From: a virus
Virus record (IMG/VR): IMGVR_UViG_3300036760_000182
Span: 1-46,937 of that record
Length of the DNA stretch: 46,937 nt
Reading direction: 5' to 3' (one strand)
The position numbers were made by a program, and so were the translations under genes. A model generated the notes under the pieces. It saw only the letters and a program-made list of their open reading frames with translations. It searched no databases and was not told the origin of the DNA. Each line of letters starts with the position of its first letter. Position 1 is the stretch's first letter. This document shows positions 30,718 through 46,238 of the stretch, piece by piece.

Positions 30718-30887
30718 AGAGACTCATTTTTGCCAGTTACTTCTTCTATCTTACGTTTAATTCTGGCATACAACATTATTGAAATCATTTCATCTTCTTT
30801 TTTAGGTATATAGCTAGCAATAGTATTACAGATAATTCTAGCTTCACTTATAGTTAGTTCTAGTTTTACTGCTTTAAGACTTTCCAA
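30714..30887 (-). CDS. 57-residue helical protein
   Basis: Short gene with TTG start; AGGA lies about 10 nt upstream and an in-frame TAG just above rules out an earlier start. Its stop overlaps the GTG of the methyltransferase gene. Helical, charged, with one Cys (ARIICNTIASYIPKKEDE). It fills the only gap in this part of the operon. Confidence 0.65.
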   Translation of the reverse strand: MESLKAVKLELTISEARIICNTIASYIPKKEDEMISIMLYARIKRKIEEVTGKNESL

Positions 30888-30888
30888 T

Positions 30889-31119
30889 TTAAAATCGTCC
30901 TATTCTACCACGTTCTAGTGCAAGATTATAAATTTGTTCAAAGAATGATGATGGAACATTTTGTCCGGCTGTTCCTATGACTAAAACATGAAAGTTTGAC
31001 TTGAATATAAGGTCGTTAATATCTTTTGGATAGAAATATTGATCTTTATTTAGATTCTGATTCCTAGCCCACTTGTAAGCTTCCTCCTCATTACCAGCAA
31101 TTAAGCAGAGTTTAGTCAT
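30889..31119 (-). CDS. Small conserved phage protein
   Basis: 76 residues. LCLIAGNEEEAYKWARNQNL and HVLVIGTAGQN suggest a small Rossmann-like alpha/beta unit. Often seen in phage replication operons as far as I recall; function unknown. Overlaps the next gene upstream by ATGA. Confidence 0.7.
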   Translation of the reverse strand: MTKLCLIAGNEEEAYKWARNQNLNKDQYFYPKDINDLIFKSNFHVLVIGTAGQNVPSSFFEQIYNLALERGRIGRF

Positions 31120-31451
31120 TCTTCATCTCTTATAAGGAGGTTAATTTCGATTACTTCTAAGTCATCAGATGTTCTACCATCATCTTTAAAATCTACAATA
31201 TCATCATATTCTCCAGTATAATTATTTTGACTGCCTGAACGTTTTCCATTAGGATTAGCAACCCACATTGTTATACATCTAGCCGCTCTACGTCTAGTAT
31301 CTATTAATCTAGGAACTCCTAATTTCTGTCTAAATTCATGCTCAGGATGGCTTGGATTCCAATGAGAATAGCCTCTATCTCTCTTAGCTTGTGGCATTAA
31401 TTCTCCAGTTGCTTTGTGCCTAATAGCGTAGTAGATAAAACTTTTAGTCAT
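31116..31451 (-). CDS. Conserved phage protein
   Basis: 111 residues. YYAIRHKATGELMPQAKRDRG is a common phage signature, followed by HWNPSHPEHEF, LGVPRLIDTRRRAARCITMW and a predicted loop. Function unknown. Coupled on both sides by ATGA. Confidence 0.72.
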   Translation of the reverse strand: MTKSFIYYAIRHKATGELMPQAKRDRGYSHWNPSHPEHEFRQKLGVPRLIDTRRRAARCITMWVANPNGKRSGSQNNYTGEYDDIVDFKDDGRTSDDLEVIEINLLIRDEE

Positions 31452-31630
31452 TCTTTATTATCCTCAATATATTGATTAAGTCTTTTAATTAGTACAATCA
31501 TTGGCAAATCAAATTCATAACTAATGTAACCAGCACGTTTAATAAAATAGTCATATAATGCCTTGACTTCATCAGTTGTAAGAGTAAATAGCTCTACTAA
31601 TTCACCATCAAATTCTCTTGCATACTTCAT
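31448..31630 (-). CDS. Small protein, unknown
   Basis: 60 residues, acidic, helical. ATGA overlaps on both sides show a tight operon. No motif. Confidence 0.6.
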   Translation of the reverse strand: MKYAREFDGELVELFTLTTDEVKALYDYFIKRAGYISYEFDLPMIVLIKRLNQYIEDNKE

Positions 31631-31839
31631 ACTAACTCCAGCAATTCAAATGGCAGAAATCCTCCATTAATTGCATCTAAAACAACCTCCACTCTTCTAC
31701 CATGATTATAATCAACATTAAACCAATCAATTTCAGTTTTAGAATCTAGTTCAATTAAATACTCTGTACCTATTAGAGCTTCTACAATTTCAATTCCATC
31801 TAAACTTTTAGTCTTCAATCTAGCCTTGACAATCATCAC
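31627..31839 (-). CDS. Small protein, unknown
   Basis: 70 residues, mixed beta/alpha (MMIVKARLKTKSLDGIEIVE). It overlaps the polymerase gene stop. No motif recognised. Confidence 0.6.
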   Translation of the reverse strand: MMIVKARLKTKSLDGIEIVEALIGTEYLIELDSKTEIDWFNVDYNHGRRVEVVLDAINGGFLPFELLELV

Positions 31840-34313: not shown

Positions 34314-34598
34314 CTATTTAAGAAGATCTTTGATATCTTGTTTAAGATGGCTCAAATCAGCCGTTTTCTTATCCCACTCCGGACCATCACATGATTTGAG
34401 ATCTATTTCTTTTAGAAATTCTTCCTGCGAGCGAATGTAAGATTCTTGTAGACCACAATTAAAACATATTCTAATAGTTTTTCTATCACCATTCTCTAAT
34501 ATAAATGGAGCTACATCACTACTAGCTCTAAACATAAAGTAATGCTTACAATTCATTTCAGGATTTTTAGCTCTAATTCTTTCTTGATGTGAAGGCAT
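34314..34598 (-). CDS. Small Cys/His protein, unknown
   Basis: 94 residues. NCKHYFMFR and CFNCG could form one zinc site. The C-terminus is an acidic helix. It precedes the polymerase gene with direct abutment. Confidence 0.65.
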   Translation of the reverse strand: MPSHQERIRAKNPEMNCKHYFMFRASSDVAPFILENGDRKTIRICFNCGLQESYIRSQEEFLKEIDLKSCDGPEWDKKTADLSHLKQDIKDLLK

Positions 34599-34778
34599 CT
34601 AATTTGAAATTTCATCATAATGTAAAAGTATATGTTTAACTCTTTCAATCTTCTCTATTCTAGAAAGAAAAATGTTTATTTCTTCTTTGATTTTGTAATT
34701 CGTTTTATCAAGATCACCTTCTTTATTATTTTCTACATCTAAACTGAATTTAATCTTGACTAAAGTATATTCAGTCAC
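34599..34778 (-). CDS. 59-residue protein, GTG start
   Basis: Short gene coupled to its upstream neighbour by GTGA, with AGGAGG a few bases before the start. Sequence begins MTEYTLVKIKFSLDVENN and continues as a charged helix. The strong ribosome binding site makes it very likely real. Confidence 0.7.
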   Translation of the reverse strand: MTEYTLVKIKFSLDVENNKEGDLDKTNYKIKEEINIFLSRIEKIERVKHILLHYDEISN

Positions 34779-35077
34779 TCAACCTCCTCTAACTCTTGCT
34801 CTCTTTTCTTTTTATGAATAAATTCTAATGCTTCATAACCATAATTAAATCTCTCCAACTGTTTCTCATGAGTTTTCAGCCATCTAACTATTAATAAATC
34901 TTCACTTATTCCTCCTAGACTACGCCTGAGAGATTTAGCTGTATCCTGAACACGCCACTTATCATGAGATTGAAGTTTAGAGAGATGAAATTTATGTGTC
35001 TCCTTTGCTTTCTCAAGCCATTTCTGCTGCATTAATTCTCCAAAAAGATTACTAGGAGTTGGCTCGCTAAAGGCCAC
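34775..35077 (-). CDS. Small helical protein, unknown
   Basis: 100 residues, basic, helical, with LRRSLGGISEDLLIVRWLKTHE. Follows the Acb2-like gene after a 64-bp spacer. Conserved style; function unknown. Confidence 0.68.
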   Translation of the reverse strand: MAFSEPTPSNLFGELMQQKWLEKAKETHKFHLSKLQSHDKWRVQDTAKSLRRSLGGISEDLLIVRWLKTHEKQLERFNYGYEALEFIHKKKREQELEEVE

Positions 35078-35141
35078 CTAAAGCGGGCTTTATTCGTGAG
35101 TTAAAAGGCAACTCCTTATTTCCGCCCATCCTAGCAAACTG
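35078..35141 (-). other. Spacer with weak stem-loop
   Basis: Largest gap in the lower minus operon. GAGTT pairs with AACTC (35098-35102 and 35110-35114) and GGGC with GCCC outside it (35085-35088, 35124-35127). No T-run follows. Could be a processing site after the Acb2-like gene. Confidence 0.35.
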
Positions 35142-35357
35142 CTATCCTACTTCAGATTTAGGGTCATTAAATACAACAGCTTTGATAGCCCACATAGCGG
35201 CTGTTTCTAGTTCTGTTAATGCAATACTTTTCTGTCTACTGTTTGGGCAATTGTCTTCAACTACTTTAGCAATATCAGAAAATTTCTCGCGCAGATAACT
35301 AATTCTTTTAAATCCATCATCGCTAGGCTTGTGATAAGCGAAAGGCTTATCTATCAT
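35142..35357 (-). CDS. Acb2-like anti-CBASS cyclic-nucleotide sponge
   Basis: 71 residues. The C-terminal helix-hairpin SRQKSIALTELETAAMWAIKAV (about 40-61) fits the Acb2/Tad1 hairpin signature, in which sREkSlAlTkLEeAmMWAnaAI is conserved; the N-terminal AYHKPSDDGFKRISYLREKF also fits. Acb2 proteins form hexamers that bind cyclic di- and trinucleotides and so block CBASS defence. The length is as expected. Coupled to the gene upstream by ATGA, so it is co-expressed with replication genes. The W and LE residues are present, and Arg replaces nothing essential that I can see. Confidence 0.75.
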   Translation of the reverse strand: MIDKPFAYHKPSDDGFKRISYLREKFSDIAKVVEDNCPNSRQKSIALTELETAAMWAIKAVVFNDPKSEVG

Positions 35358-35734
35358 GACATCGGCTTGAAATCAACTACGTCATTAAATTCGTTACCTT
35401 TGTTACTCTTACCACGCTTGGTATAAATCATCAGTTTATGTCCAACAGTCTGCTCAAATAGCTGAGTTGAAAGTTCATATCCCTTAACTGGATCATATGG
35501 AAAAGCTAGTGTCTTCCACAGAGACTTACCAAAGCCTAGAGCTTTCTCATTAAACAGCTTCTGACAGATAACTCCTTTACCAGGACCATCAATAATCTTA
35601 AAATAGAATAAACAGTTAGTAGACTGGTCTGTCTCTGCCTCTTTCTCCTTATATTCTACGATTTCAGATGGATGCCAGGTGGTTTCCACTAGGTCTCCAC
35701 GCTTAAGGTCGTCGGGGGTTAAAATTGCTCTCAT
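35354..35734 (-). CDS. Probable ssDNA-binding protein, DUF669-like
   Basis: 126 residues. KRGDLVETTWHPSEIVEY, LFYFKIIDGPGKGVICQKLF and GKSNKGNEFNDVVDFKP match the strand pattern of phage DUF669-type proteins that lie next to Sak4-like ATPases. It would coat ssDNA in annealing or replication. Separated from the Sak4-like gene only by an inserted HNH gene. OB fold inferred. Confidence 0.5.
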   Translation of the reverse strand: MRAILTPDDLKRGDLVETTWHPSEIVEYKEKEAETDQSTNCLFYFKIIDGPGKGVICQKLFNEKALGFGKSLWKTLAFPYDPVKGYELSTQLFEQTVGHKLMIYTKRGKSNKGNEFNDVVDFKPMS

Positions 35735-36204
35735 GGTTTTTGCCTTCTTTTTTGGTTGATTGTGTTTTTGTGTTTATTGTAGTGTTTGTTTCTAGCTATC
35801 CTAGCACATTCTCTACACTTTAATCTCTTACTAGTATCTAATCTATGTCTTCTTGTGATATATCCATGTATTTTTAAGGAATGACCACTTTTGCAATATT
35901 TTCTAGATTCTCTATAATCTCTACCATTATCAGATTGAGTACCTACATACAAACAGTTTGGGTTCCAACAATTTCTATATTTACATATTAATTTATGTAA
36001 TGCATTTAGTATAGGACTATCTAAATCTAATTCTAAATGAATATAAGCAGATAACCTATGCACTCCATAATGATTACCATCTTCTCTACTACCTACCCAT
36101 AGCATTCCATATCCTTGACTAGTTCTTCCCATCCATAACCAATGACCATCTTCGCTTATGATCGTATTGGCCCACAATCTGGATAGAACTTCTTCTTTAT
36201 TCAA
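35731..36204 (-). CDS. HNH homing endonuclease 1, free-standing
   Basis: 157 residues, TTG start right after the Sak4-like stop. NUMOD-like start GHWLWMGRTSQGYGMLWVG, then HRLSAYIHLE, ALHKLICKYRNCWNPNCLYVGTQSDN which is the HNH core (His, His, Asn and a Cys site). The C-terminus has the zinc module CKSGH ... CREC shared with the LAGLIDADG genes of this genome. It overlaps the next gene by ATGA. Inserted between the ATPase gene and the ssDNA-binding gene. Confidence 0.88.
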   Translation of the reverse strand: MNKEEVLSRLWANTIISEDGHWLWMGRTSQGYGMLWVGSREDGNHYGVHRLSAYIHLELDLDSPILNALHKLICKYRNCWNPNCLYVGTQSDNGRDYRESRKYCKSGHSLKIHGYITRRHRLDTSKRLKCRECARIARNKHYNKHKNTINQKRRQKP

Positions 36205-36205
36205 T

Positions 36206-37066
36206 CTACGTTTTCCAGGTTTGTGTTGTTGGTTGAGTGAATGGATTTGCTATTCTAGCAGCTAATTCTTCTTCAGTTAATTCTTTCTTAGGTTCAATAT
36301 CTCTACTCTTGTCAGCAAGTTCTTTCCATACAGTATAGAATAGCTTATTAGTAATATCAAATTCTTTAGGAATATCTAATGCAGTTTTAGCAAAATCATC
36401 TCCAACCATATCAGTTAATACTATTCTTCTATTTGTATTATCATTATAATCGACTCTACGTGCAAAGTGATATATTTCATTAAAATAGCCTGGGACTATT
36501 GCTCCAACTTTCTGACCATAACTCACAATAGATGTAACTTTACTTACAATCATACTACTTCCAGAGCCAGACATGCTTAAACTAGGAAGTGGGTGAGCTG
36601 TTAGGATTATATGACATGGAAGCATCTTCATTATATCTAATGCTTGACTAACTAATGAAGTCTCCACTTTATAGGCGTCAAAATCTGGAATAAGATTTGG
36701 TTCATTTGATTTTCTTACTTTAGATCCTCTAAATCCTAATGACCAATTTATAGCACTGGCTGTGAGACTCGTTACTGAGTCTGTTATAATTGCTGTATAA
36801 CGACAATCTTTAGTAAATCCTATTAGTTTATTAAGGAACTCATTCGCATTGTGACTAGAATATGTATCATAATTAACATTATCTAAAAGTTCCGGACAAT
36901 ATTTCTTAAAATATGTTAACACTGGAAGCATCCTACCATCAAAATCAAATACATATATTGGACCCTCTACTGCAAATGTACAAGCACTAATAGTTTTACC
37001 CATACCATTAGCTCCTTTAAGGAGCATTGATATATTCTTACTTGGTATTAATTGACTGAGCTTCAT
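36206..37066 (-). CDS. Sak4-like RecA-fold ATPase
   Basis: 286 residues. Walker A is GANGMGKT (18-25), Walker B is AIITDS (about 93-98), with DFDGR after the first helix as in AAA_24 proteins. Sak4 and related ATPases assist annealing and recombination of phage ssDNA, usually beside an SSB, which matches the gene at 35354. The C-terminus is NPFTQPTTQTWKT. Good ribosome binding site AGGAGGAAGAA before ATG. Confidence 0.8.
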   Translation of the reverse strand: MKLSQLIPSKNISMLLKGANGMGKTISACTFAVEGPIYVFDFDGRMLPVLTYFKKYCPELLDNVNYDTYSSHNANEFLNKLIGFTKDCRYTAIITDSVTSLTASAINWSLGFRGSKVRKSNEPNLIPDFDAYKVETSLVSQALDIMKMLPCHIILTAHPLPSLSMSGSGSSMIVSKVTSIVSYGQKVGAIVPGYFNEIYHFARRVDYNDNTNRRIVLTDMVGDDFAKTALDIPKEFDITNKLFYTVWKELADKSRDIEPKKELTEEELAARIANPFTQPTTQTWKT

Positions 37067-37494
37067 TTCTTCCTCCTTCTCTCATTGTAACAGTTAGCAC
37101 AATATCTTGTCCATGTAGTCTTACTAGTATTTCTATTTATTTGTTTATGTTTTCTGTATGGAAATTTACATTTAGGACAAACTTCTTTACTTGCATTATA
37201 ATGTGTTCCAGCCTTAATAGAATCATATGTGTTGTCTGAATCAGAGCCAGGTATAATATGTTCTGGATTAAAACAAGAACCATTATTACATTTGTGTCTT
37301 GCTATTATTTTCTTATCATCATAATTTATATCACTCCACAAACACATAACTAATCTACTCAATAAGAATCTATTACCATTTATTTTTATTCGTATATTAT
37401 GACAGGTTTCAGGAATATAATTTGATATCCAACAACCATTAGAATTTATAGTTTTAGGAATTAAATCAATAAATTCTTTAGTTATTAATATCAT
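37063..37494 (-). CDS. HNH homing endonuclease 2, free-standing
   Basis: 143 residues. GCWISNYIPE, FLLSRLVMCLW and IARHKCNNGSCFNPEHIIPGSDSDN give the HNH core. The C-terminal zinc module is CPKC ... CANC. It lies between the poly-Asp gene and the Sak4-like gene. The sequence GAGGAAGAAAT (ribosome binding site plus start) occurs just before it and again at its end, before the Sak4-like start. Confidence 0.87.
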   Translation of the reverse strand: MILITKEFIDLIPKTINSNGCWISNYIPETCHNIRIKINGNRFLLSRLVMCLWSDINYDDKKIIARHKCNNGSCFNPEHIIPGSDSDNTYDSIKAGTHYNASKEVCPKCKFPYRKHKQINRNTSKTTWTRYCANCYNERRRKK

Positions 37495-37505
37495 ATTTCT
37501 TCCTC
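37491..37505. repeat. Duplicated ribosome binding site/start context, copy 1
   Basis: TCATATTTCTTCCTC here is identical to 37678-37692; on the minus strand it reads GAGGAAGAAATATGA, the start region of HNH gene 2 and of the poly-Asp gene. A shorter version lies at 37063-37076 before the Sak4-like gene. Confidence 0.8.
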
Positions 37506-37513
37506 ACTTTTCA

Positions 37514-37681
37514 CTAGCTTGGAAATTCGTCTGGTTCTCTTATATCTCTTGCACTATCTTCTCCTTTTTCATAATCATTTTCGTCTTCATCATCTTCATC
37601 GTCATCATTTTCATCATTTTCATCTTCCAAATCTTCATCATCATCGTCATCATCATCATCGTCATCATCAGAAATTCTCAT
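37514..37681 (-). CDS. Hyperacidic 55-residue poly-Asp protein
   Basis: Starts MRIS followed by 11 Asp residues, then Glu/Asp/Asn repeats and the end REPDEFPS. 35 of 55 residues are Asp or Glu (24 and 11), with only four Lys/Arg. The ATG overlaps the stop of the previous gene (ATGA) and GAGGAAGAA is at the right distance. A DNA mimic or an acidic tail that binds SSB partners is possible; no family known to me. The GAT repeats make the length prone to change. Confidence 0.7.
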   Translation of the reverse strand: MRISDDDDDDDDDDDEDLEDENDENDDDEDDEDENDYEKGEDSARDIREPDEFPS

Positions 37682-37692
37682 ATTTCTTCCTC
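37678..37692. repeat. Duplicated ribosome binding site/start context, copy 2
   Basis: Second exact copy of the 15-nt sequence at 37491-37505. It gives the poly-Asp gene its ribosome binding site inside the end of the previous gene. Confidence 0.8.
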
Positions 37693-38118
37693 TTCTTGTT
37701 TTTGTTTTTGATGGATTGTTTGTTCAAGACGTTCTGATAGTGAAAGTTCTGCTGGTTTATCACTGTACATTCCTACTAATCCATTAATAATAGAGTCCTT
37801 CATATATTCTCCCATATCTCTAGTATCAGTTTCTTTTTTAGGCTTATGGCAATTATTGCAATGAGGTTTTGATAAACGAATAGAATATTCATTCATTACA
37901 AAAGATTCCCCACAACGCCAACAGATTGACCTTTTTCCTAATACTAGAGAGATGTTAGTTTTGAATGCACAGTCTGGTAGGGCGCAGAAGAATATATCAT
38001 TCCCAGACTTATATCTTAATCTTTTTAATTTATGCACATGACTGATTTTTGGCATTGTGGCGCTCATTCTGCTTTTCGTTTTTGCATCTTCTACAGTATC
38101 TAGTTCCTCTTTTTTCAT
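37678..38118 (-). CDS. Zinc-ribbon protein, unknown
   Basis: 146 residues from the ATG at 38118, which has GGGAG 8 nt upstream; the upstream ATG at 38136 has no such signal. It contains FFCALPDC, ICWRCGESF and HCNNC, six cysteines able to bind zinc, and an acidic Gln/Glu tail. It overlaps the end of HNH gene 3 by 89 nt in another frame. Perhaps a transcription or replication cofactor; unknown. Confidence 0.65.
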   Translation of the reverse strand: MKKEELDTVEDAKTKSRMSATMPKISHVHKLKRLRYKSGNDIFFCALPDCAFKTNISLVLGKRSICWRCGESFVMNEYSIRLSKPHCNNCHKPKKETDTRDMGEYMKDSIINGLVGMYSDKPAELSLSERLEQTIHQKQKQEEEEI

Positions 38119-38488
38119 GTCTATATCTCCCACCACATTTAGGACAATTAATCTTTGCTATATTTCTATGGGTTTTGGTTATAACTAAATCCTTGGCATT
38201 ATCAGTTTGTGTACCAACGTAAACATGCTCTGAATTAAAACACGCTCTATTATTACAAAATGTTTTATGGTTAACTTGTACGCTATCATCATTTATATCT
38301 AAACCTAAATAAACTGCTGCTGATACTCTATGGAGATATATCCTTTTTCTATTTATTGTAACTTCTCCATACCCATTGTTTAAATGTCCAACATATAGCC
38401 AACATCCAATTTCATTAGTAGTTCTTGGTAGACTTAATATAAATTCTAGGGTTATTGCATTGTTTACTCTTTTTCTTTTATATTTCAT
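38030..38488 (-). CDS. HNH homing endonuclease 3, free-standing
   Basis: 152 residues. GCWLYVGHLNNGYGEVTI, HRVSAAVYLGLD and VNHKTFCNNRACFNSEHVYVGTQTDN form the HNH core. The C-terminal zinc module CPKCGGRYRHEKRG ... CRRC lies partly in the overlap with the next gene. Weak ribosome binding site. It follows a 149-bp structured spacer. Confidence 0.87.
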   Translation of the reverse strand: MKYKRKRVNNAITLEFILSLPRTTNEIGCWLYVGHLNNGYGEVTINRKRIYLHRVSAAVYLGLDINDDSVQVNHKTFCNNRACFNSEHVYVGTQTDNAKDLVITKTHRNIAKINCPKCGGRYRHEKRGTRYCRRCKNEKQNERHNAKNQSCA

Positions 38489-38504
38489 ATATTCTACAAT
38501 AGGC

Positions 38505-38563
38505 GACAGAGCCGTTCTGAAGTGCGGTCACTTGGACGCAGACAATCAAGCAACGGCTCTGTC
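38505..38563. ncRNA. Perfect 12-bp stem with nested hairpin
   Basis: GACAGAGCCGTT (38505-38516) pairs with AACGGCTCTGTC (38552-38563) without mismatch. The 35-nt loop contains AAGTG/CACTT around CGGT. The block is clearly richer in G+C than its surroundings. It lies in the largest gap of the minus operon, before HNH gene 3. Could be a structured RNA, protein-binding site or the target area of a mobile gene. Confidence 0.6.
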
Positions 38564-38637
38564 TATTCTGCCTTTGCAGCACTAATATTCTCTCTCACCA
38601 CTTTCATGAGCACAGAATGGCTACTAAGACAGAAGTT

Positions 38638-38862
38638 TCAGTCTTTTTTATAAGAATCTACTTCCCGTTTATATCCATATTTTCTTATTGCTAATATAAA
38701 ATTACTTACTACATCATCTTCTAAGCATATTTCATTTTCAGGTTCTATACCATTAAATGTAAATATATATAATTGATTAGAATTCCTCTCAAGTCCGATG
38801 TGAACTGAGTCTCCTAAATATTCTATTTGGTTATATCTATCACTTATATTCATCTCAGTCAA
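38638..38862 (-). CDS. Small protein, unknown
   Basis: 74 residues, acidic beta/alpha (DSVHIGLERNSNQLYIFTF). It overlaps the nuclease gene upstream by 8 nt. No motif recognised. Confidence 0.62.
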   Translation of the reverse strand: MTEMNISDRYNQIEYLGDSVHIGLERNSNQLYIFTFNGIEPENEICLEDDVVSNFILAIRKYGYKREVDSYKKD

Positions 38863-39760
38863 CTCCTAATTTTGATGTAACATCCCAAGGCTCTACTGTG
38901 ACGTACTCATTCTCTAATTTATTATCTTTAGAATCTTGTCCACTACTGTCACACACGTTATAATATTCACATAAACGATTAAACTTATTACAACTTGTAG
39001 GCTTTTCAGGCCAGGCTTCACTTGCAATACAACCCATAAATTCATTTAATAGCATTTTAGTAAGATTATCTTTCCAATCAGCTATATAAATAGGATCATA
39101 TGACAGAGGAAGTCTTTTGAACTTCTCTTCTGCTGGCAAAGTCTTTTGTAAGCCTATTCTATTAACAACTAAATAATTAGATCCTACTGCTGCACAATAG
39201 TTAATAAACTGGTTGCTCTTTCTTAGTACTACTGAATCACGGCTAAATGTCTTGTGATCTATTGGTAGCCTTTCATAGCTTGCGTTACGCCCTATTCCAG
39301 TAAAATTCACTAGTAGGTCTATTTTTCCACTAATAATTATACGAACAGAATCATCCTCGTACAAAATATAAGCAAATGGCTGCTCAACGGCTAGGACTTC
39401 TAAACTATTCTCATCTTCTGCTCTCCAATAATCGCATGATTGCTCTACTGCTTTTAATAAAACTGCTACTTCTTCAGGTTCGCTATTTGATGCTTCCGCA
39501 TCACAAGATATTTCTCTAATCTTCATTAGAGTAGCTGTCATTCTATCATCATAATGTTTTCCTTCTCCTAGCAGATTGAAATATACTCCTAGACCTTCGT
39601 GTGCTAATGAACCTAAATCCAATGCTTTAGCCTTATGTATAATAGGAAGACTTTTGTTATGATTATGTCTGAAGTTGTATCTAGCAGGACACGTCTCGAA
39701 AAGGTCTATTTTAGACGCATCTAATATAATATTCGCCTTAGAACTTTTAATTATTTCCAT
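38855..39760 (-). CDS. Cas4/RecB-like PD-(D/E)XK nuclease with Fe-S cysteines
   Basis: 301 residues. ASKIDLFETCPARYNFRHN (15-33) holds the first cysteine and the RecB-family entry motif, LGSLAHEGLGVYF gives the conserved His, GKIDLL the Asp, and LPIDHKTF the D-x-K core. The C-terminal CNKFNRLCEYYNVC supplies three more cysteines, as in Cas4/AddB iron-sulphur clusters. It would trim DNA ends during recombination or degrade host DNA. Confidence 0.82.
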   Translation of the reverse strand: MEIIKSSKANIILDASKIDLFETCPARYNFRHNHNKSLPIIHKAKALDLGSLAHEGLGVYFNLLGEGKHYDDRMTATLMKIREISCDAEASNSEPEEVAVLLKAVEQSCDYWRAEDENSLEVLAVEQPFAYILYEDDSVRIIISGKIDLLVNFTGIGRNASYERLPIDHKTFSRDSVVLRKSNQFINYCAAVGSNYLVVNRIGLQKTLPAEEKFKRLPLSYDPIYIADWKDNLTKMLLNEFMGCIASEAWPEKPTSCNKFNRLCEYYNVCDSSGQDSKDNKLENEYVTVEPWDVTSKLGVD

Positions 39761-39766
39761 GATTAC

Positions 39767-39967
39767 TTACTCCAGATTGGTTCTCCCCCCAAATTTTATT
39801 CTATAAGCAATTTCGCTTGCAACATCCCTTTTAGCTTTAAGAAGATTAAATGAAGCTAATTCTTTAGATTCATATTTATTCATCTCCTCCTGATAATGCT
39901 CAGCTAATTCAAATGCTATAGTCCAACACTCCTGAACTGTTTGAGGTTTATGAATAACTTCAGACAT
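39767..39967 (-). CDS. Small helical protein, unknown
   Basis: 66 residues, all helical and charged, no cysteine apart from one near the N-terminus (VQECWTIAFELAEHYQEEM). Overlaps the next gene by 8 nt. Confidence 0.62.
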   Translation of the reverse strand: MSEVIHKPQTVQECWTIAFELAEHYQEEMNKYESKELASFNLLKAKRDVASEIAYRIKFGGRTNLE

Positions 39968-40139
39968 AATTCTTTAATCCTTTTTTTATCTCAGAGACTT
40001 GTTCAGGAGTGAGATAGTCATCATCTCCAGGTTTTGGAACATGAAAATTTGATTTAGAAATAATCCTCTGCTGTAACTCGTGAATATAATCATCGTTTAT
40101 ATCCTCGATGAAGTGATCAAGTTTGCTTGTTCTTTGCAT
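39960..40139 (-). CDS. Small protein, unknown
   Basis: 59 residues from ATG 40139 (MQRTSKLDHFIED), which has AAGGAA upstream and avoids overlap with the previous gene. A longer form from 40214 would overlap it by 62 nt and is less likely. Contains PKPGDDDYLTPEQVSEI. Confidence 0.55.
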   Translation of the reverse strand: MQRTSKLDHFIEDINDDYIHELQQRIISKSNFHVPKPGDDDYLTPEQVSEIKKGLKNYV

Positions 40140-40152
40140 CAACTTCTTTTCC

Positions 40153-40521
40153 TTATGGAGTTGTTTTCTTAAATGAAAATCTACTCGCTTCACGTTCATC
40201 ATATCTATTTTCATCTATGCTATCATCATTAACTAAATCAATACTATCTGTAGTCTTTTGTTCAGCCTTCCATTTTTCTCTGTCAGCTTTACTACGTCCC
40301 ATATTATCTCTAGTTCCCTTACATTCTGGATAATTTTTACATCCCCAAAATACACCAAACTTACCTGTACGCGATACCATTTCGCCATCACATTCAGGAC
40401 ATTTGACGTTTTCAGGTTTGCTCATCTCTCTGAGTCTCCTAATCTCATTGTCAGACTCGCTAAATGGATGTCCATCTTGTTCTCCGAGATATTCAATAAA
40501 TCTATCTTCATGATAACTCAT
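40153..40521 (-). CDS. Topoisomerase-type zinc-finger protein
   Basis: 122 residues. CPECDGEMVSRTGKFG ... WGCKNYPECKGTRD (about 40-72) is the C4 finger found at the end of type IA topoisomerases and in stand-alone nucleases. The rest is charged and acidic. It would bind ssDNA. Overlaps the peptidase-like gene by ATGA. Confidence 0.78.
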   Translation of the reverse strand: MSYHEDRFIEYLGEQDGHPFSESDNEIRRLREMSKPENVKCPECDGEMVSRTGKFGVFWGCKNYPECKGTRDNMGRSKADREKWKAEQKTTDSIDLVNDDSIDENRYDEREASRFSFKKTTP

Positions 40522-41123
40522 GGTTTGACCTCATATGAGAGCTTTGATATAATTGCATTCATTTCGTTATTGTCTCTAAATGTAAACTGTCCTAAGCGTC
40601 TAGTTATGTTATCTTCATGATTTTCATATATATCAGAAGCTATAATTCTGATATTATTACTATACATTTTATCAATAATTATTACAGTCCTCTCAAATTT
40701 AGGTTTAGGTTTCTCAGTAATCTTATAGACTGCTTCACATTTCTGTGAAAGTCTAGCAGAGCCTTCGGCAGGAAGAGGAAATTTAGAGTGATTATCTACT
40801 AGATAAATTTTATTATCTTCTGTAACTTCTACAGCTACCACATGTTTAGGAACTAATATGATATACATTCCATGCTTTGTAGATAGAGAAGATAAATTTC
40901 CAAATAATGTATAACTTGTTTTATTTATTGGAGTCATATCAAATCTTAATCTTTTGAATGCTTCAATTAAATATTTTACTTCTACTGCTCTAACTTCTGC
41001 CCTTCCTGTTATAGACATTATAATAGAAGCACATTCATCTGTTGACTTACCTGTTAATGCAGACATCACAGAAGGACCACAATATTGATTAAGACCAAAG
41101 TTCACTTCTTTAAGGCTTGTCAC
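40518..41123 (-). CDS. Papain/C39-like cysteine peptidase candidate
   Basis: 201 residues. NQYCGPSVMSALTG (12-25) has the Gln-x-Cys-Gly pattern of an oxyanion hole and nucleophile (Cys15). KHVVAVEV gives His94 and IYLVDNHS gives Asp110/Asn111. The order and spacing fit the papain-like fold of C39 and related peptidases. A phage replication operon is an odd place for this; it might process a phage protein or act on a host factor. Activity is inferred. Confidence 0.55.
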   Translation of the reverse strand: MTSLKEVNFGLNQYCGPSVMSALTGKSTDECASIIMSITGRAEVRAVEVKYLIEAFKRLRFDMTPINKTSYTLFGNLSSLSTKHGMYIILVPKHVVAVEVTEDNKIYLVDNHSKFPLPAEGSARLSQKCEAVYKITEKPKPKFERTVIIIDKMYSNNIRIIASDIYENHEDNITRRLGQFTFRDNNEMNAIISKLSYEVKP

Positions 41124-42715
41124 AGACTCCAGGCCTTTCTCCCTTTTGTTACAAGAATCTCAGCAAGCTCTTTCATCAAACTCTGCTGATTCCATTGAAT
41201 CTCTTTCTTATCCATCGTAGCCGCAACTATCGCACGTTTTATTTCAACAAGTTCAGTAAAGTATTCATCTATCGTTCCGCTGGCTAACATATAAGTTATA
41301 GACACGTTATTTAATTGACCAAATCGATGAAAACGTCCTTCAACTTGTTCTTCATTAGCTGGATTCCATTGACGCTCTAGGATAATCGCGTCGCTACAAA
41401 ATTGAAGATTAAGACCCTCTCCGGCAGCTAATGTGCTAGCAATCATCAGCCTTCGGCTGGAGTCTGATTTAAACTCTTCTACAAGCCTTGTTCTTGCATT
41501 TCCATCTAAGCCTGAATGAAGAACGCAAACCTTACCAAAATCACCCTGCATACACCATTCATTTAACTGAGATTCTAACATTCCCATTACATCTTGATGG
41601 TGTGTGAAGATTACTATCTTTCTATCTGTTGATAAGAGAAATTCAGTAGAGAAATCGATACACTCTGCTACTTTAGATATCCCGGTGATGTGTCTTAATT
41701 TAGACATGATAGCTATTGTATTAGTTGCTTTCTCAAATTCACTTTCGTCTGAATATAGCATATCATCTAACTCTTGCAGAGCCGCTGCATATGCTTTATT
41801 TAGACGCCTATCTAACTCTACGTGGTGAAATTTTCTATCTATTGAAGGAAGATCTGGCAGGACGTCGGCTTTAGTGCGACGAATTATGATATCTTTTGTA
41901 TCTTCATGAAAGCGTTCTACGTCTTTTAATCCACCTATTTTCTGTCCCCAACCATTACTATAAGCATCACAATAGTTGTCTATATATTTCTGGTAGTGTG
42001 GAAATAGTGTAGGTTTAGTCAGATTAAGAACAGTGAAATACTCTCCAGCATTGTTCTTAATTGGAGTGCCAGACATCGAAATAATGTGTTCTGTGCTCTT
42101 TGCAATCCTCTGACAAGCCTTAGCTCTATCAGAGAGATGATTTTTAATTCTCTGACATTCATCTATGATTATAGTCTTTATCATTCCTTCTGGTAAATAC
42201 TCAAATAAATTTTCTTTCTTTAACATATCATACGTAACTATATATATTTGAAATCCAGGCATTGCACGTTCTTTTCCTGATTGAATAACTTGAACTAGAA
42301 ACTTTGTATCTTTTGCTCCGTCAACACAGCAGATACGATGAATCTCAAACATCCATTGTAATTTGACTGTGGAGGGACATACGATAACGGCTGGCAGCAG
42401 CTTCGCTGGATGAAGTTTTAATAGGGATAATGCTTCTATTGTTTTACCTAAACCTTGCTCGTCAGCTATGATGCAACGAACATTTGACTCTTCTGCAAAC
42501 TTAACTGCATCTATTTGATATGGTCTTGGTTTACAGCCGTCACTAAATACTATTGAGTTGTAGTCTTGTTCTTGTGAAGCGAGAGCTTCAGAATGAAGAA
42601 TGTGACCACAAGCTAATTTGATAATTATTGTCTTTCCTATTTTTAGGCGAGACTGCTCAACGGCGATCTTTTTACAAGTAGGACATTCTTGACGGATGAT
42701 TTGAGTGAGGGCCAT
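41120..42715 (-). CDS. SNF2-type DNA helicase
   Basis: 531 residues. N-terminal zinc pair CPTC ... ACGH, then DEQGLGKT (85-92, motif I), IIDECQRIKN (motif II), SGTPIKN (motif III), VLHSGLDG, ASTLAAGEGLNLQ (motif V) and RFHRFGQ (motif VI). It resembles phage SNF2 proteins related to SMARCAL1 that remodel forks or rewind DNA. Overlaps both neighbours by 1-4 nt. Confidence 0.92.
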   Translation of the reverse strand: MALTQIIRQECPTCKKIAVEQSRLKIGKTIIIKLACGHILHSEALASQEQDYNSIVFSDGCKPRPYQIDAVKFAEESNVRCIIADEQGLGKTIEALSLLKLHPAKLLPAVIVCPSTVKLQWMFEIHRICCVDGAKDTKFLVQVIQSGKERAMPGFQIYIVTYDMLKKENLFEYLPEGMIKTIIIDECQRIKNHLSDRAKACQRIAKSTEHIISMSGTPIKNNAGEYFTVLNLTKPTLFPHYQKYIDNYCDAYSNGWGQKIGGLKDVERFHEDTKDIIIRRTKADVLPDLPSIDRKFHHVELDRRLNKAYAAALQELDDMLYSDESEFEKATNTIAIMSKLRHITGISKVAECIDFSTEFLLSTDRKIVIFTHHQDVMGMLESQLNEWCMQGDFGKVCVLHSGLDGNARTRLVEEFKSDSSRRLMIASTLAAGEGLNLQFCSDAIILERQWNPANEEQVEGRFHRFGQLNNVSITYMLASGTIDEYFTELVEIKRAIVAATMDKKEIQWNQQSLMKELAEILVTKGRKAWSL

Positions 42716-42960
42716 TAGAGCTTTCTCTTTATTCGTCCTAATATAGATTGATAACCATCCACAACATACGCAATATGCAGCTTTCTCTCTAGGTCAAGAA
42801 GAGAAAGATAAATTGTTTCACAACAATCTGATTGCACTGCATTCTTACTAAGATTATTATCATCTAAATATAAAATAGATTGATAACCATCCACAACATA
42901 TACAATATGCAATTCTTGATGTAATCCTAACTTCTCGTGCAATTTGATTAGGTCTGTCAT
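42715..42960 (-). CDS. Small protein with internal duplication
   Basis: 81 residues. LHIVYVVDGYQSIL and LHIAYVVDGYQSIL occur at about 17-30 and 61-74. The end ILGRIKRKL shares a 20-nt identical DNA stretch with the next gene upstream (ILGRIKNK). The gene looks like a patchwork of duplicated pieces. Coupled to both neighbours. Unknown function. Confidence 0.6.
   Translation of the reverse strand: MTDLIKLHEKLGLHQELHIVYVVDGYQSILYLDDNNLSKNAVQSDCCETIYLSLLDLERKLHIAYVVDGYQSILGRIKRKL
42727..42746. repeat. 20-nt repeat CTTTATTCGTCCTAATATAG, copy 1
   Basis: Identical to 43041-43060, same strand, both in the same codon frame of their genes (ILGRIK). Suggests copying of a gene segment between neighbours. 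Confidence 0.85.
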
Positions 42961-43517
42961 TGTTTCTTCTCAAATGGATTGAATAGTGGTTTGCTTTCTT
43001 CTACACTGTCCTGCTTCGACACTGCTTCGACACTTTTATTCTTTATTCGTCCTAATATAGCTCCGGCTGACATCAACTTCGTTGCATCTGATGTTGATAT
43101 TCCGAGCTTCTCTAATCCGGCTTGAATTTTCTCCATCTTTGTCATTCTTTTCTGTCTATCTTTTATTGCATTGATAGCATTAGTTGTAGCTTCGTCAGTA
43201 TTTAAACTACGTTCAAATCCTCGCACTTCGCGCTCGGATTTCTTTCGTCCACGCTCTTCGTCATCAACGGCCGTTAGTCTTGCTCGCGCCTCAAATGCTA
43301 TCTTAGCTAACTCTTCTCTATGTGCTCTGAGTTCTAGAATCTCCATATCTTTTACTAATATCTTCTCATGATTAAATAGTTGACTAAATAGTTCCTCTTG
43401 CGGAGTCATCTCTATTATCCTCTCGCTCACTTCTCTAACTCGATGAACATAATTGAACCCTGCAGCGACTATGTTTAATGCAGCAAGAGAAGGCACTGAA
43501 TACTCATCTCTATCCAA
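42957..43517 (-). CDS. Charged helical protein, unknown
   Basis: 186 residues. A long helical stretch (about 50-130) rich in Glu/Arg/Lys suggests a coiled coil. Near the end KSVEAVSKQDSVEES contains a small tandem DNA repeat AGTGTCGAAGC, similar to the 11-bp unit found after the next gene. It ends PLFNPFEKKQ. Possibly part of the replication complex; unknown. Confidence 0.65.
   Translation of the reverse strand: MDRDEYSVPSLAALNIVAAGFNYVHRVREVSERIIEMTPQEELFSQLFNHEKILVKDMEILELRAHREELAKIAFEARARLTAVDDEERGRKKSEREVRGFERSLNTDEATTNAINAIKDRQKRMTKMEKIQAGLEKLGISTSDATKLMSAGAILGRIKNKSVEAVSKQDSVEESKPLFNPFEKKQ
43041..43060. repeat. 20-nt repeat CTTTATTCGTCCTAATATAG, copy 2
   Basis: Second identical copy, inside the gene at 42957-43517. 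Confidence 0.85.
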
Positions 43518-43525
43518 TGCCTTCT

Positions 43526-43550
43526 CTACTTCTACACTACTTCTACACTA
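43526..43550. repeat. Tandem 11-bp repeat after a stop codon, minus orientation
   Basis: Reverse complement of the 25 bases at 5593-5617. It fills the spacer after the TAG stop of the gene at 43554. Unrelated genes on opposite strands thus share one post-stop repeat. Confidence 0.8.
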
Positions 43551-43553
43551 CTT

Positions 43554-43835
43554 CTATTGCTGCTCGTTCACAGAAACGAACTTAATCGTTCTGGTCGCCT
43601 TCAGTAGAGTTGCCAGCTTGAATACTAACGAAGCCGGAATTTCTACTTCGTCGTATTCTACTTCTCCTGCGGCTCCTGCAATTGGTACTCCAGCAGAAGA
43701 AATGAGAACCTTTCCATTCTCCTGTATCTTCGCGTGAATACCAAAATGCTCAATGGTTAACGGTTGGTGAACATACCTCTTAATCTTTCCAACATTGTCT
43801 TCGTCTCTCAATTCTGGAGTGTTATGGAATGCCAT
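43554..43835 (-). CDS. Conserved small phage protein
   Basis: 93 residues, beta-rich: KIKRYVHQPLTIEHFGIHAKIQ, KVLISSAGVPI and a final LLKATRTIKFVSVNEQQ. No cysteine. Unrecognised, probably an early protein. Confidence 0.65.
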   Translation of the reverse strand: MAFHNTPELRDEDNVGKIKRYVHQPLTIEHFGIHAKIQENGKVLISSAGVPIAGAAGEVEYDEVEIPASLVFKLATLLKATRTIKFVSVNEQQ

Positions 43836-43934
43836 TGTTTTAACCTCTCTCTTTACTCGCTATTAGAGCTTAATTGCTCTCTGCTTCGCAGATGAAAGAA
43901 TCTGTAAAGCAGGCAGAAATTAATCTCTTAATCT
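43836..43934 (-). other. Spacer with short GC hairpin
   Basis: Contains TCTGC-TTC-GCAGA (about 43881-43893), a short stable hairpin, but no T-run on the minus strand. May slow or process the early transcript between the first two genes and the rest. No gene seen here. Confidence 0.4.
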
Positions 43935-44156
43935 TTAGTTAATTGCTCTATCTAAATTCTCTGTATGAGTTAGTAACATATGGTTCAACAATCTCTCTGC
44001 TGCTGCATCTCGAAAACCTTGTGCATAAATACGCAGAATCATAATTGTCATTAACTTAATACTAAGTTCTTTCAACTCCTCTGTGTCATCTCTGTTAGCT
44101 TTCAATAATAGGCCTACTATTTCAGTAGCTTCTTTCTCTGCTTGTTCTAAATTCAT
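43935..44156 (-). CDS. Small helical early protein
   Basis: 73 residues, helical (LEQAEKEATEIVGLLLKANRD). Coupled to its upstream neighbour by ATGA. No motif. Confidence 0.62.
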   Translation of the reverse strand: MNLEQAEKEATEIVGLLLKANRDDTEELKELSIKLMTIMILRIYAQGFRDAAAERLLNHMLLTHTENLDRAIN

Positions 44157-44491
44157 TCTTCTCTCCTATAACATCTTAAACTTGGTTTACTCGGCGAAAC
44201 CGAATCAAAGCATATGAAATAGTGAAAGTGGTTTACAGCGTATTTCACAGAGTAATACCAACATGGATAACTAATCACTCGCTTGCAAAGAGCACAGCGA
44301 ATTTGTAAGTTAGATAATGCTGATAGTGCTAGCGGCTGAGAGAGGATTAGAACAGACTTACGTCTGATTGTCTGCTGAATACGTGGAGAACCTGAAGACT
44401 TGTCAAGAATACTGTCAACATTTATGTTTAGTTTAATCTCTTCGGCTTTACCATATTTAACTATTGATTCTAGAATTTCATCCCTCAACAT
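44153..44491 (-). CDS. First gene of the early operon, Cys-rich
   Basis: 112 residues, AGG 8 nt before ATG. IRCALCKRVISYPCWYY suggests a metal site; the C-terminus is CYRREE. It follows a long leader that carries the 10-bp repeats. It might be a DNA-binding regulator, but no HTH is visible. Confidence 0.6.
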   Translation of the reverse strand: MLRDEILESIVKYGKAEEIKLNINVDSILDKSSGSPRIQQTIRRKSVLILSQPLALSALSNLQIRCALCKRVISYPCWYYSVKYAVNHFHYFICFDSVSPSKPSLRCYRREE

Positions 44492-44506
44492 ACTTTTACC
44501 TGGACA

Positions 44507-44565
44507 GACGTTGACCGTTGTTGACAGACGTTGACAGACGTTGACAGGTGTCCTCGGACGTTGAC
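44507..44565. repeat. 10-bp phased repeats, array 1 (GACGTTGAC)
   Basis: GACGTTGAC is perfect at 44507, 44527, 44537 and 44557, with a degenerate copy at 44517. All lie on a 10-bp period and so on one face of the helix. Located in the leader of the early minus operon. A further half-site GGCAACGTG is at 44619, near the predicted transcription start. Confidence 0.85.
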
Positions 44566-44637
44566 CGGACCCCGTAAGTCGTTGATTCTAAAGGACTTAG
44601 GTTCAGTTTGTTTCATGAGGCAACGTGTCTACCTGAG

Positions 44638-44666
44638 AGTATAGCATACCTGGGGTGGGATGTCAA
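44638..44666 (-). promoter_or_regulatory. Leftward early promoter
   Basis: On the minus strand TTGACA (44666-44661), 17-nt spacer, TATACT (44643-44638) with TGC before it (extended -10). Near-perfect sigma70 promoter driving the minus-strand operon that begins at 44491; the leader is about 140 nt. Confidence 0.85.
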
Positions 44667-44687
44667 GTGTCCTATGTTGTGGACACT
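44666..44687. other. Stem-loop next to the leftward promoter
   Basis: AGTGTCC and GGACACT pair perfectly around an 8-nt loop, just upstream of the leftward -35. Might be an operator or a hairpin of the origin. Confidence 0.45.
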
Positions 44688-44698
44688 CTTGGTATTTC

Positions 44699-44750
44699 TC
44701 TTATATATATATAATAATATATATAAAAATATATAATAAAAAGAATAGAA
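44699..44750. other. AT-rich tract
   Basis: About 50 bp almost without G or C (TATATATATATAATAATATA). A likely duplex-unwinding element beside the repeat arrays. Confidence 0.6.
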
Positions 44751-44760
44751 CACACAACTA

Positions 44761-44783
44761 CCCCTTTAACCCCACCCTACCCC
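44761..44783 (-). other. G-quadruplex motif
   Basis: On the minus strand four G-runs: GGGG-TA-GGG-T-GGGG-TTAAA-GGGG. It fits the usual G3+N1-7 rule with short loops. Directly next to the AT-rich tract. Confidence 0.65.
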
Positions 44784-44877
44784 TACCGACACACCCTGAC
44801 GCGAACATGTTCATTTCGTCTGTAAGTCATTGTAAACGCAACGACTTAGCGACTGTTGCGAGCATCTGTCCACACCT

Positions 44878-44926
44878 GGCAACGTCTGGAAACGTGTGTC
44901 AACGTGTGTCAACATTTGTCAGGATT
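44878..44926. repeat. 10-bp phased repeats, array 2 (GTCAACGTG type)
   Basis: Half-sites at 44878 (GGCAACGTC), 44888 (GGAAACGTG), 44898 (GTCAACGTG), 44908 (GTCAACATT) and a weak one at 44918 (GTCAGGA). The period is again 10 bp and the orientation opposite to array 1. Ends 35 bp before the rightward -35. Confidence 0.8.
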
Positions 44927-44960
44927 AGGAACCTCTCTCGTCTAGTTACAATCTTAGTGC

Positions 44961-44989
44961 TTGACATTCTCCATACTCTTTGCTATACT
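44961..44989 (+). promoter_or_regulatory. Rightward early promoter
   Basis: TTGACA (44961-44966), 17-nt spacer, TATACT (44984-44989), with TGC before the -10. Near-perfect sigma70 promoter for the gene at 45026. The predicted start falls at about 44996. Confidence 0.88.
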
Positions 44990-45025
44990 TCTCTCATGGC
45001 AATCAAGCCAGTGAAGGAGACGAAA

Positions 45026-45475
45026 ATGAGCGAAGACGAAAAGACGGCACAAGAGCTTGCACTCGATTTGATGCAGGCCGAAGCGGATGAGAAGAACAAG
45101 GCCCGAAGCGGAAAAGGAACGCGAGTTGCAGTCGGCCAGACGAGAGGACGCAATCCACAAGTTATTTCTTGGGAGCGATTCGACGACCGACTTCCTGAGA
45201 CTCTGCCGAAGACTCTCAGTGAGTTCATGGAAATTGCCAAAGTCTCTGACGAAGTAACAATCGTTTCCTATCTACTTGATGGTTACAATTCCGCTGCTTA
45301 CACTGCCGCTTCTGACCCTGTAGCAGAGTTCGTGGACCCAACGTGGAACGAAGACGTTCAGAAGCAATTCCGTCTGGTCGTTAGGAACTACAGCAATGCA
45401 ACTGGCGTTTCAATCGAAGATGCTGTTGCTCTTATCAAGCCGGGAATTGTGAAGTCTCAGTCTGCTGCGAAGTAA
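45026..45475 (+). CDS. Early protein, unknown, GC-richer
   Basis: 149 residues. I chose ATG 45026 because AAGGAG lies 6 nt upstream and the promoter starts transcripts at about 44996; longer forms run through the promoter. Acidic N-terminus (MSEDEKTAQELALDLMQAEADE), then basic RSGKGTRVAVGQTRGR, and a helical C-terminus (FRLVVRNYSNATGVSIEDAVALI). Codon use is GC-richer than the operons. Its strong promoter suggests a very early role, perhaps a regulator of the phased repeats, which is speculation. Confidence 0.8.
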   Translation: MSEDEKTAQELALDLMQAEADEKNKARSGKGTRVAVGQTRGRNPQVISWERFDDRLPETLPKTLSEFMEIAKVSDEVTIVSYLLDGYNSAAYTAASDPVAEFVDPTWNEDVQKQFRLVVRNYSNATGVSIEDAVALIKPGIVKSQSAAK

Positions 45476-45487
45476 GAACCTGCTAGA

Positions 45488-45521
45488 AATGACCGGAGAG
45501 TGTAAAAGCTTTCCGGTCATT
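45488..45521. terminator. Shared hairpin between convergent genes
   Basis: AATGACCGGA (45488-45497) pairs with TCCGGTCATT (45512-45521); four more pairs including G-U wobbles extend it to 14 bp with a 6-nt loop. It lies between two convergent genes. T-runs are poor on both sides, so it is a bidirectional terminator of moderate quality. Confidence 0.65.
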
Positions 45522-45528
45522 CCCGCCC

Positions 45529-45792
45529 TTATTCATCATCCTGCGAAGCAGCGTAGTAATCAAGTGGGACTGTCTTGAGACTTCCACGCGAAGCGTGATG
45601 CTGTTCTGTTCTAACAGCGCCAAAAGCGGCTACAACAGGAATGAACATCGGCATTCCAAGCAAGTCTACATTAGACTGCCACTGCCTTGCCGGCTTGCCG
45701 GTCAGAGAATACATTGCAGGTATTGTCCCACAATTCTGGCAGTGAAGACGTGAAGAGTGATTGATTGAGAGACAGATTGAACACTCATACAT
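45529..45792 (-). CDS. Zinc-ribbon phage protein
   Basis: 87 residues from ATG 45792, which has AGGAGAA before it; longer forms lack a signal. CSIC ... CQNCGTIPAMYS (about 4-29) is a zinc ribbon, followed by a hydrophobic FIPVVAAFGA segment and an end DYYAASQDDE. GC-richer than the operons. Early protein of unknown role. Confidence 0.75.
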   Translation of the reverse strand: MYECSICLSINHSSRLHCQNCGTIPAMYSLTGKPARQWQSNVDLLGMPMFIPVVAAFGAVRTEQHHASRGSLKTVPLDYYAASQDDE

Positions 45793-45827
45793 GATTAGTT
45801 CTCCTCTTTTTTGATATGATGATTTGA

Positions 45828-45917
45828 CTAGCGGCCGCAAGCACAGTGCTTGTCTAGCCACTGCAACATGATACGACGACGATACCACTTGAAACGAAGT
45901 AGAAACAATTCAATCAT
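45828..45917 (-). CDS. 29-residue microprotein with strong signals
   Basis: Starts MIELFLLRFKWYRRRIM, ends with CACGR. AGGAGG lies 8 nt upstream, the best ribosome binding site of the region, and a sigma70 promoter is just before it. The basic aromatic helix may bind RNA or membrane, or it may be a leader peptide for the zinc-ribbon gene 35 nt downstream. Confidence 0.6.
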   Translation of the reverse strand: MIELFLLRFKWYRRRIMLQWLDKHCACGR

Positions 45918-45925
45918 TTCTCTAT

Positions 45926-45931
45926 CCTCCT
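45926..45931 (-). promoter_or_regulatory. Strong ribosome binding site AGGAGG
   Basis: Perfect AGGAGG on the minus strand, 8 nt before the ATG at 45917. It decides that the 29-residue gene is real. Confidence 0.75.
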
Positions 45932-45946
45932 ATATATACTATCGGC

Positions 45947-45976
45947 AGTATAACAGAAACCTTTAGAGCTTGTCAA
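45947..45976 (-). promoter_or_regulatory. Leftward promoter for the microprotein/zinc-ribbon pair
   Basis: TTGACA (45976-45971), 18-nt spacer, TATACT (45952-45947) with TGT before it. Same extended -10 style as the other promoters. Confidence 0.8.
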
Positions 45977-46027
45977 CCTACAAAATCTAGTGTCCCATCC
46001 CCATACCCCCACTATATCTAGTGGATG

Positions 46028-46055
46028 TTAATGGCCTTACAGTCCGGACCATTAA
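46028..46055. other. Inverted repeat TTAATGG/CCATTAA
   Basis: Perfect 7-bp arms (46028-46034, 46049-46055) around 14 nt that themselves contain GTCCGGAC. May be an operator or a terminator-like structure upstream of the late promoter. Confidence 0.45.
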
Positions 46056-46210
46056 GCACTCTCTAATGAGAATTTTAATGAGAGATATAATCATTAATTT
46101 TAATCATTCTTTATTAATCGAGCGAGTGAAGCGAACGAGAAGAAAAAAAATAAAATTAATAAAAACATCTGAAAATTTCAGAACACACGAATTTATTAAC
46201 AAAAACCTAC

Positions 46211-46238
46211 TTGACAACGTCTGGAAACGTGATACACT
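46211..46238 (+). promoter_or_regulatory. Late (virion operon) promoter with phased operator
   Basis: TTGACA (46211-46216), 16-nt spacer, TACACT (46233-46238), TGA before the -10. Two half-sites GACAACGTC (46213) and GGAAACGTG (46223) on a 10-bp period cover the -35 and spacer, and CAACGTCTGGAAACGTG is identical to part of array 2. Binding of a protein here would block the promoter, so late genes may be repressed early. Confidence 0.75.

Follow-up and report, generated by a model that had tools for sequence, protein, structure and literature searches.

Facing arrays of 10-bp repeats with lineage-specific sequence around an AT-rich core in an uncultured phage group

Two arrays of 10-bp direct repeats faced each other around an AT-rich core in the control region lying between the early/replication block and the late block of an uncultured phage, and the same arrangement recurred in about 39 relatives. 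Its geometry was fixed whereas the unit sequence varied among genomes, remaining matched between the two arrays of each one, and this combination suggests that a single protein, specific to each phage, binds the DNA at what is probably a replication origin. We assign a probability of roughly 0.55 to the arrays being the sites of a single cooperatively assembling, phage-encoded DNA-binding protein, either of the initiator type or regulating the origin.

Arrays and control region of the window

The window, i.e., the whole stretch of DNA analysed, corresponds to an entire viral record of 46.9 kb (46,937 nucleotides) from an uncultured phage group. Rightward late genes occupied the first 28.4 kb or so of the contig as well as the stretch from 46271 onwards, and the early/replication operon (28997-44491) ran leftward from 44491, away from the core. 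This leftward block encoded a primase-like DUF3987 protein (28997), a family A polymerase with a uracil-DNA-glycosylase domain (31836), a Sak4-like product (36206), a PD-(D/E)XK nuclease (38855) and a SNF2 helicase (41120). Contig breakpoints differed among relatives, and the map is therefore probably circular or circularly permuted. Several other features of the block were observed. The frame at 31836-34313 encodes a single protein of 825 aa in which the glycosylase domain (PF03167) is N-terminal to the polymerase; a conserved protein of 201 aa (40518-41123) displayed, by eye, a CGP...H...DNH pattern like that of C39-type cysteine peptidases and had no match in a Pfam search; and the reading frame at 37514-37681 was full of Asp and Glu repeats. 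Genes resembling HNH/homing endonucleases (weak Pfam matches) were also present in the window phage.

The left array (44507-44566, plus strand) comprised six 10-mers at an exact 10-bp step, starting at 44507, 44517, 44527, 44537, 44547 and 44557; five were of the (G)ACGTTGACA type and that at 44547 was degenerate. The left half-sites of the original prediction were all recovered: GACGTTGAC was perfect at 44507, 44527, 44537 and 44557, and the site at 44517 reads GTTGTTGAC. Six 10-mers of the complement type (TGTCAACGTG and variants), starting at 44867 to 44917 and pointing the other way from those on the left, made up the right array (44867-44926, minus strand). Five half-sites of one type had been proposed here; their 10-bp step was exact, but GTCAACGTG occurred unaltered only at 44898, the others being degenerate (GGCAACGTC at 44878, GGAAACGTG at 44888, GTCAACATT at 44908 and GTCAGGATT at 44918). 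The exact step predicted for both arrays was confirmed by a lag-10 scan of the whole window, in which they gave the two highest peaks (0.72 at 44862 and 0.67 at 44498; mean 0.267, SD 0.063), and the arrays lay in inverted orientation on either side of an AT-rich core, as also predicted. With one mismatch allowed, GACGTTGAC matched 12 times in comparison with 3.6 expected and a maximum of 9 in 100 shuffles. These peaks and shuffles, along with the period statistics of the relatives given below, ruled out chance repeats.

From left to right, the control region contained the left array, the left dyad, the promoter PL, the AT core, the right dyad, the right array, the promoter PR and gp45026. The left dyad (TAAGTCGTTG-N5-AAAGGACTTA, 44575-44599) was imperfect, lay between the left array and PL, and was kept in relatives. 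PL (TTGACA-17-TATACT, 44638-44666, minus strand) was directed leftward into the early/replication operon and was conserved in the alignment with L091, the closest relative; the left array lay within the 5' leader of its transcript. The AT-rich core (TATATATATAATAATATATATAAAAATATATAATA, 44701-44743), a candidate unwinding element, was found in relatives too, and was followed by the right dyad (TAAGTCATTG-N6-CAACGACTTA, 44823-44848). PR (TTGACA-17-TATACT, 44961-44989, plus strand), also conserved in L091, was directed rightward into gp45026, with the right array upstream of it in the window. The array units were direct 10-bp repeats overlapping neither promoter. An Rfam search gave no match, and neither did a DNA search of cultured phages with the region.

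The two dyads, as well as those of L144 and the loci following it, resembled a widespread palindrome, TAAGTYNTTG-N5-CAANRACTTA. A scan of viral contigs placed this palindrome at no fewer than 120 loci, and the spacer was exactly 5 in 148 of the 161 matches listed. It was mostly intergenic (21 of 146 among the matches listed were inside long frames vs. 68% at random), and several loci among the matches listed held more than one copy. Cultured phages provided partial matches only, and none of the literature found by the palindrome sequence describes it as an element. Elsewhere the dyad was mostly not accompanied by 10-bp arrays; in another viral contig (L233, near 10972) a long 10-bp array, of the ATGCAATGGT type, came directly after one copy.

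The late promoter (TTGACA-16-TACACT, 46211-46238, plus strand) carried in its spacer a 17-nt copy of the right array, CAACGTCTGGAAACGTG being exact at 44880-44896 and 46215-46231. When the right array was compared with 740 other 60-bp windows the best match was 11 nt; the copy is far above chance, and the two half-sites predicted across this promoter are thus real. The link to an early-late switch that had been attached to them fared differently. Many relatives had a promoter of the same form in front of the late gene, yet in none of those examined did array units of that genome cross it, the copy being seen only in the window. An operator at the late promoter was consequently rejected as a group feature, the early-late link is unsupported as a general function, and any late-gene role is limited to the phage of the window.

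Geometry and unit sequence among relatives

Over 50 distinct loci were collected by using gp45026, the SNF2 protein and gp46271 as queries. For about 40 of them the surroundings of the AT core were extracted, and arrays recurred in about 39. Of 76 flanks scored for periods of 5-25 bp, 58 were best at 10 bp and 8 at 20 bp, with mean best scores of 0.645 at lag 10, 0.558 at lag 20 and 0.39-0.42 at all other lags; when a smaller set was compared with shuffles, p < 0.05 was reached by 39 of 45 flanks. The distance between left and right arrays (320-430 bp) was nearly constant around the conserved AT core, which in relatives displayed TATATA runs. Genome-wide scans of 15 genomes with their own matrices located the strongest two-unit sites at their own core, weakly in the case of G004. 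Weak or one-sided arrays were found in L007, L034, and L023, and four distant phages with a related polymerase presented no clear paired 10-bp arrays.

Measured against the condition under which the original prediction would fail, a lack of array conservation in close relatives, the outcome was split: the group kept the period, the place and the mutual orientation of the arrays, but not the unit sequence. The units were ACGTTGACAG in the window, CGTGTCGGAA in L017, GCGTCCAAAA in L038, CAACGTGCGA in L019, GCGGGTGAAC in L005 and GGAGCAACTC in L103, with a faint common theme around CGTCCGACAA. Conservation of the GACGTTGAC unit across the group was rejected, as units differed even in L091. In this relative, whose gp45026 is 82% identical to that of the window, long identical blocks extended over the dyads, PL, the AT core and PR, and both arrays were swapped for units of the AGAACCTTC/GTGAGCCATC type with the 10-bp steps retained. 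L091 sits on a 7.2-kb contig binned as Candidatus Pacearchaeota; its bacterial-type promoters suggest a bacterial host, and the archaeal binning is therefore doubtful. A virus whose host is given as Methanomicrobiales (vir526; L143:44158-44208 and 880-940) displayed a tandem array with an 11-bp period, as well as an AT core and a half-dyad, CAACGACTTACAG, near the junction of its divergent gene blocks.

The match between left and right arrays was evaluated with arrays chosen independently for each flank in the 36 genomes with both arms (21 in a first set). In inverted orientation, units matched those of the opposite array of the same genome better than those of other genomes (1.42 vs. 0.80), a difference reached in none of 100,000 permutations, whereas no effect was obtained in direct orientation for the same 36 genomes (p = 0.24). 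A private unit, inverted from one array to the other, is thus common to both arrays of a genome, which accordingly behave as targets of one protein. As far as sequence comparison can tell, this supports one DNA-binding protein per phage that would read both arrays with a fast-changing specificity; to this extent the single cooperative protein originally predicted is supported, though not its early-late link.

Could the match arise with no protein involved? The arrays might be the arms of a large inverted repeat whose complementarity is kept by DNA or RNA pairing: in the window, 44503-44551 matches the complement of 44872-44920 at 80% over 49 nt (inverted repeat I1), and left-right complementarity was maintained across lineages. 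Pairing does not require a 10-bp period, however, the loop would be about 320 nt long, and when the units of one array were put in random order the fit dropped by little (mean z 0.78; below 0.05 in 3 of 36 genomes), all of which makes this explanation very improbable. The slight effect of unit order thus favours a shared binding motif over base pairing, together with some copying of array pieces. Recombination alone, with tandem duplication growing the arrays and conversion copying between arms so that the match merely records copying, would account for this mild order signal, for the long identical words between arms (21 nt in L098, 16 nt in L091) and for the 17-nt copy at the late promoter of the window. 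Nevertheless, a strict 10-bp period and a fixed place in about 39 divergent genomes need selection, and the inverted homology of the window ends at the array edges; as a complete explanation we regard recombination as improbable, although copying of array pieces could explain part of the match.

A repressor, immunity-like or autoregulatory, acting on both PL and PR through pure operator arrays, with the AT core as a simple promoter-region feature, is a further alternative, modelled on the lambdoid OL and OR operators. The arrays do flank divergent promoters of the sigma70 type, the left one lies within the PL leader, and lineage-private operators common to both sides have the look of immunity specificity. 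Yet PL lies clear of the left array, the genes searched included no recognisable repressor gene, and in relatives such as L017/G009, where gp45026 is inverted, no PR of the form found in the window was seen and the array stays. We consider this alternative unlikely, and retain one DNA-binding protein at a probable origin as the preferred reading.

Candidate binding proteins

The best-conserved neighbour of the arrays was gp45026 (45026-45475, plus strand), a protein of 149 aa universal in the group; together with gp42957, the SNF2 protein and several other replication genes, it was present throughout most of the group. Its AlphaFold model (pLDDT 87.6) presented a beta-hairpin carrying TRGRNP and then helices. 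The model had no structural match in PDB or BFVD, and the sequence had none in PDB, NCBIfam or among cultured phages; the fold, though confidently modelled, thus gave no grounds for naming gp45026 as the binder. The window and L091 have the same hairpin but different array units, which makes it doubtful that gp45026 is the source of specificity.

Next after PL and the left array comes gp44153 (44153-44491, minus strand), which has conserved cysteines but was undetected in six array-bearing relatives that form a sub-group. In this sub-group (G009:C1:37801-38127 and relatives) a protein that by eye is SpoVG-like replaces gp43554 in the early operon. Identities between the window and L091 were 51% for gp44153, 82% for gp45026, 76% for gp43554 and 48% for the late protein gp46271. 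A short zinc-ribbon protein, gp45529, was present in only part of the group, and for gp42957 the model was too poor for use and the N-terminus of relatives gave weak zinc-finger matches only. Neither HTH or RHH proteins nor any known initiator family were recognised among the early genes searched, and array-unit similarity was not correlated with the distances of 14 proteins. No candidate is strongly favoured.

Tentatively, the arrays may be read by a novel class of protein whose specificity is swapped wholesale between close relatives with the rest of the origin/control region kept fixed, the two arrays acting as facing 10-bp filament tracks and the origin code diversifying. If this were true, superinfection exclusion, satellites or origin-targeting nucleases would be the selection behind such a code.

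Origin reading and known systems

By analogy, the control region most likely represents an iteron-type origin joined to a divergent early control region. Repeated, helically phased sites, of which each 10-bp unit holds nearly the same helical face, and an adjacent AT-rich region between the arrays were found in the window and in the relatives alike. Cumulative GC skew turned at the core and near 28.5 kb, a switch that coincides with that of gene strand. The protein would coat both arrays, with the complexes meeting across the core and helping to open the AT-rich stretch, leading to bidirectional replication; on the left array, inside the PL leader, it could also dampen the replication operon. 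Phages may gain by keeping their origin/operator code from competitors (superinfecting relatives, satellites or origin-targeting nucleases). Because an unshared code would be of benefit, specificity would diversify fast, and array and protein would therefore change together.

Nature here offers a clean series of about 39 site arrays, with both arms available for 36, that differ in sequence but share one geometry. This series allows the co-change of a DNA-binding assembly and its sites to be tested, and also whether phage origins stay private under the same pressure as plasmid incompatibility sites. In addition, a probable origin is marked for a whole group that is known only from metagenomes and has no close cultured relatives.

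Iterons of iteron plasmids are about 20 bp long. As a rule these longer repeats form one array, in contrast with the two inverted arrays of 10-bp units found here. The likeness lies in helix-phased direct repeats next to an AT-rich stretch, the plasmid repeats being initiator-bound (PMC5043065). Both in these plasmids and in lambda, initiator-bound repeats open the adjoining AT-rich stretch, and the lambda origin, like the present region, has repeated sites beside an AT-rich region, in its case an unwinding region of about 40 bp (PMC5043065, PMC7466680). Its four iterons, of about 19 bp and each with inverted-repeat structure, all lie within the O gene and on a single side, whereas the present region has 10-bp direct units in two facing intergenic arrays. 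Internally symmetric iterons of that kind, embedded in an O gene, were absent here, and no O homologue or O-like protein was found in the genes searched. Fast change of the sites, here at a probable origin, is shared with the Vibrio PLE, where iterons and the DNA-binding part of the RepA initiator change together and escape from the origin-directed nuclease Odn of ICP1 is one driver (PMC8263062). The PLE possesses three semi-palindromic iterons of about 30 bp and a known RepA_N initiator, as opposed to 10-bp units and a putative binder.

Repeat arrays beside a promoter are likewise known from ParMRC centromeres, and terminase-site specificity diverges among phages. A partition or packaging site, with 10-bp direct-repeat arrays bound by a ParR-like or terminase-like protein, would fit the likeness to centromeres made of short direct-repeat arrays with diversifying specificity (PMC9426499). 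We judge it quite improbable: no ParM/ParA or ParR-like gene was found among the genes searched (parM and parR had no match in Pfam or PHROGs among the genes neighbouring the arrays, although a diverged ParR might escape such a search), the gene for the large terminase (2729) is several kb distant, on the far side of the late promoter, and neither class needs facing arrays around a conserved AT core, which in the comparison with ParMRC belong only to the present region. In lambdoid phages, a lineage-private site is common to the two operator groups next to divergent promoters, and the operators are 17-bp palindromes around the repressor gene. Here, palindromic operators overlapping PL and PR were absent, and 10-bp direct units surround an AT core.
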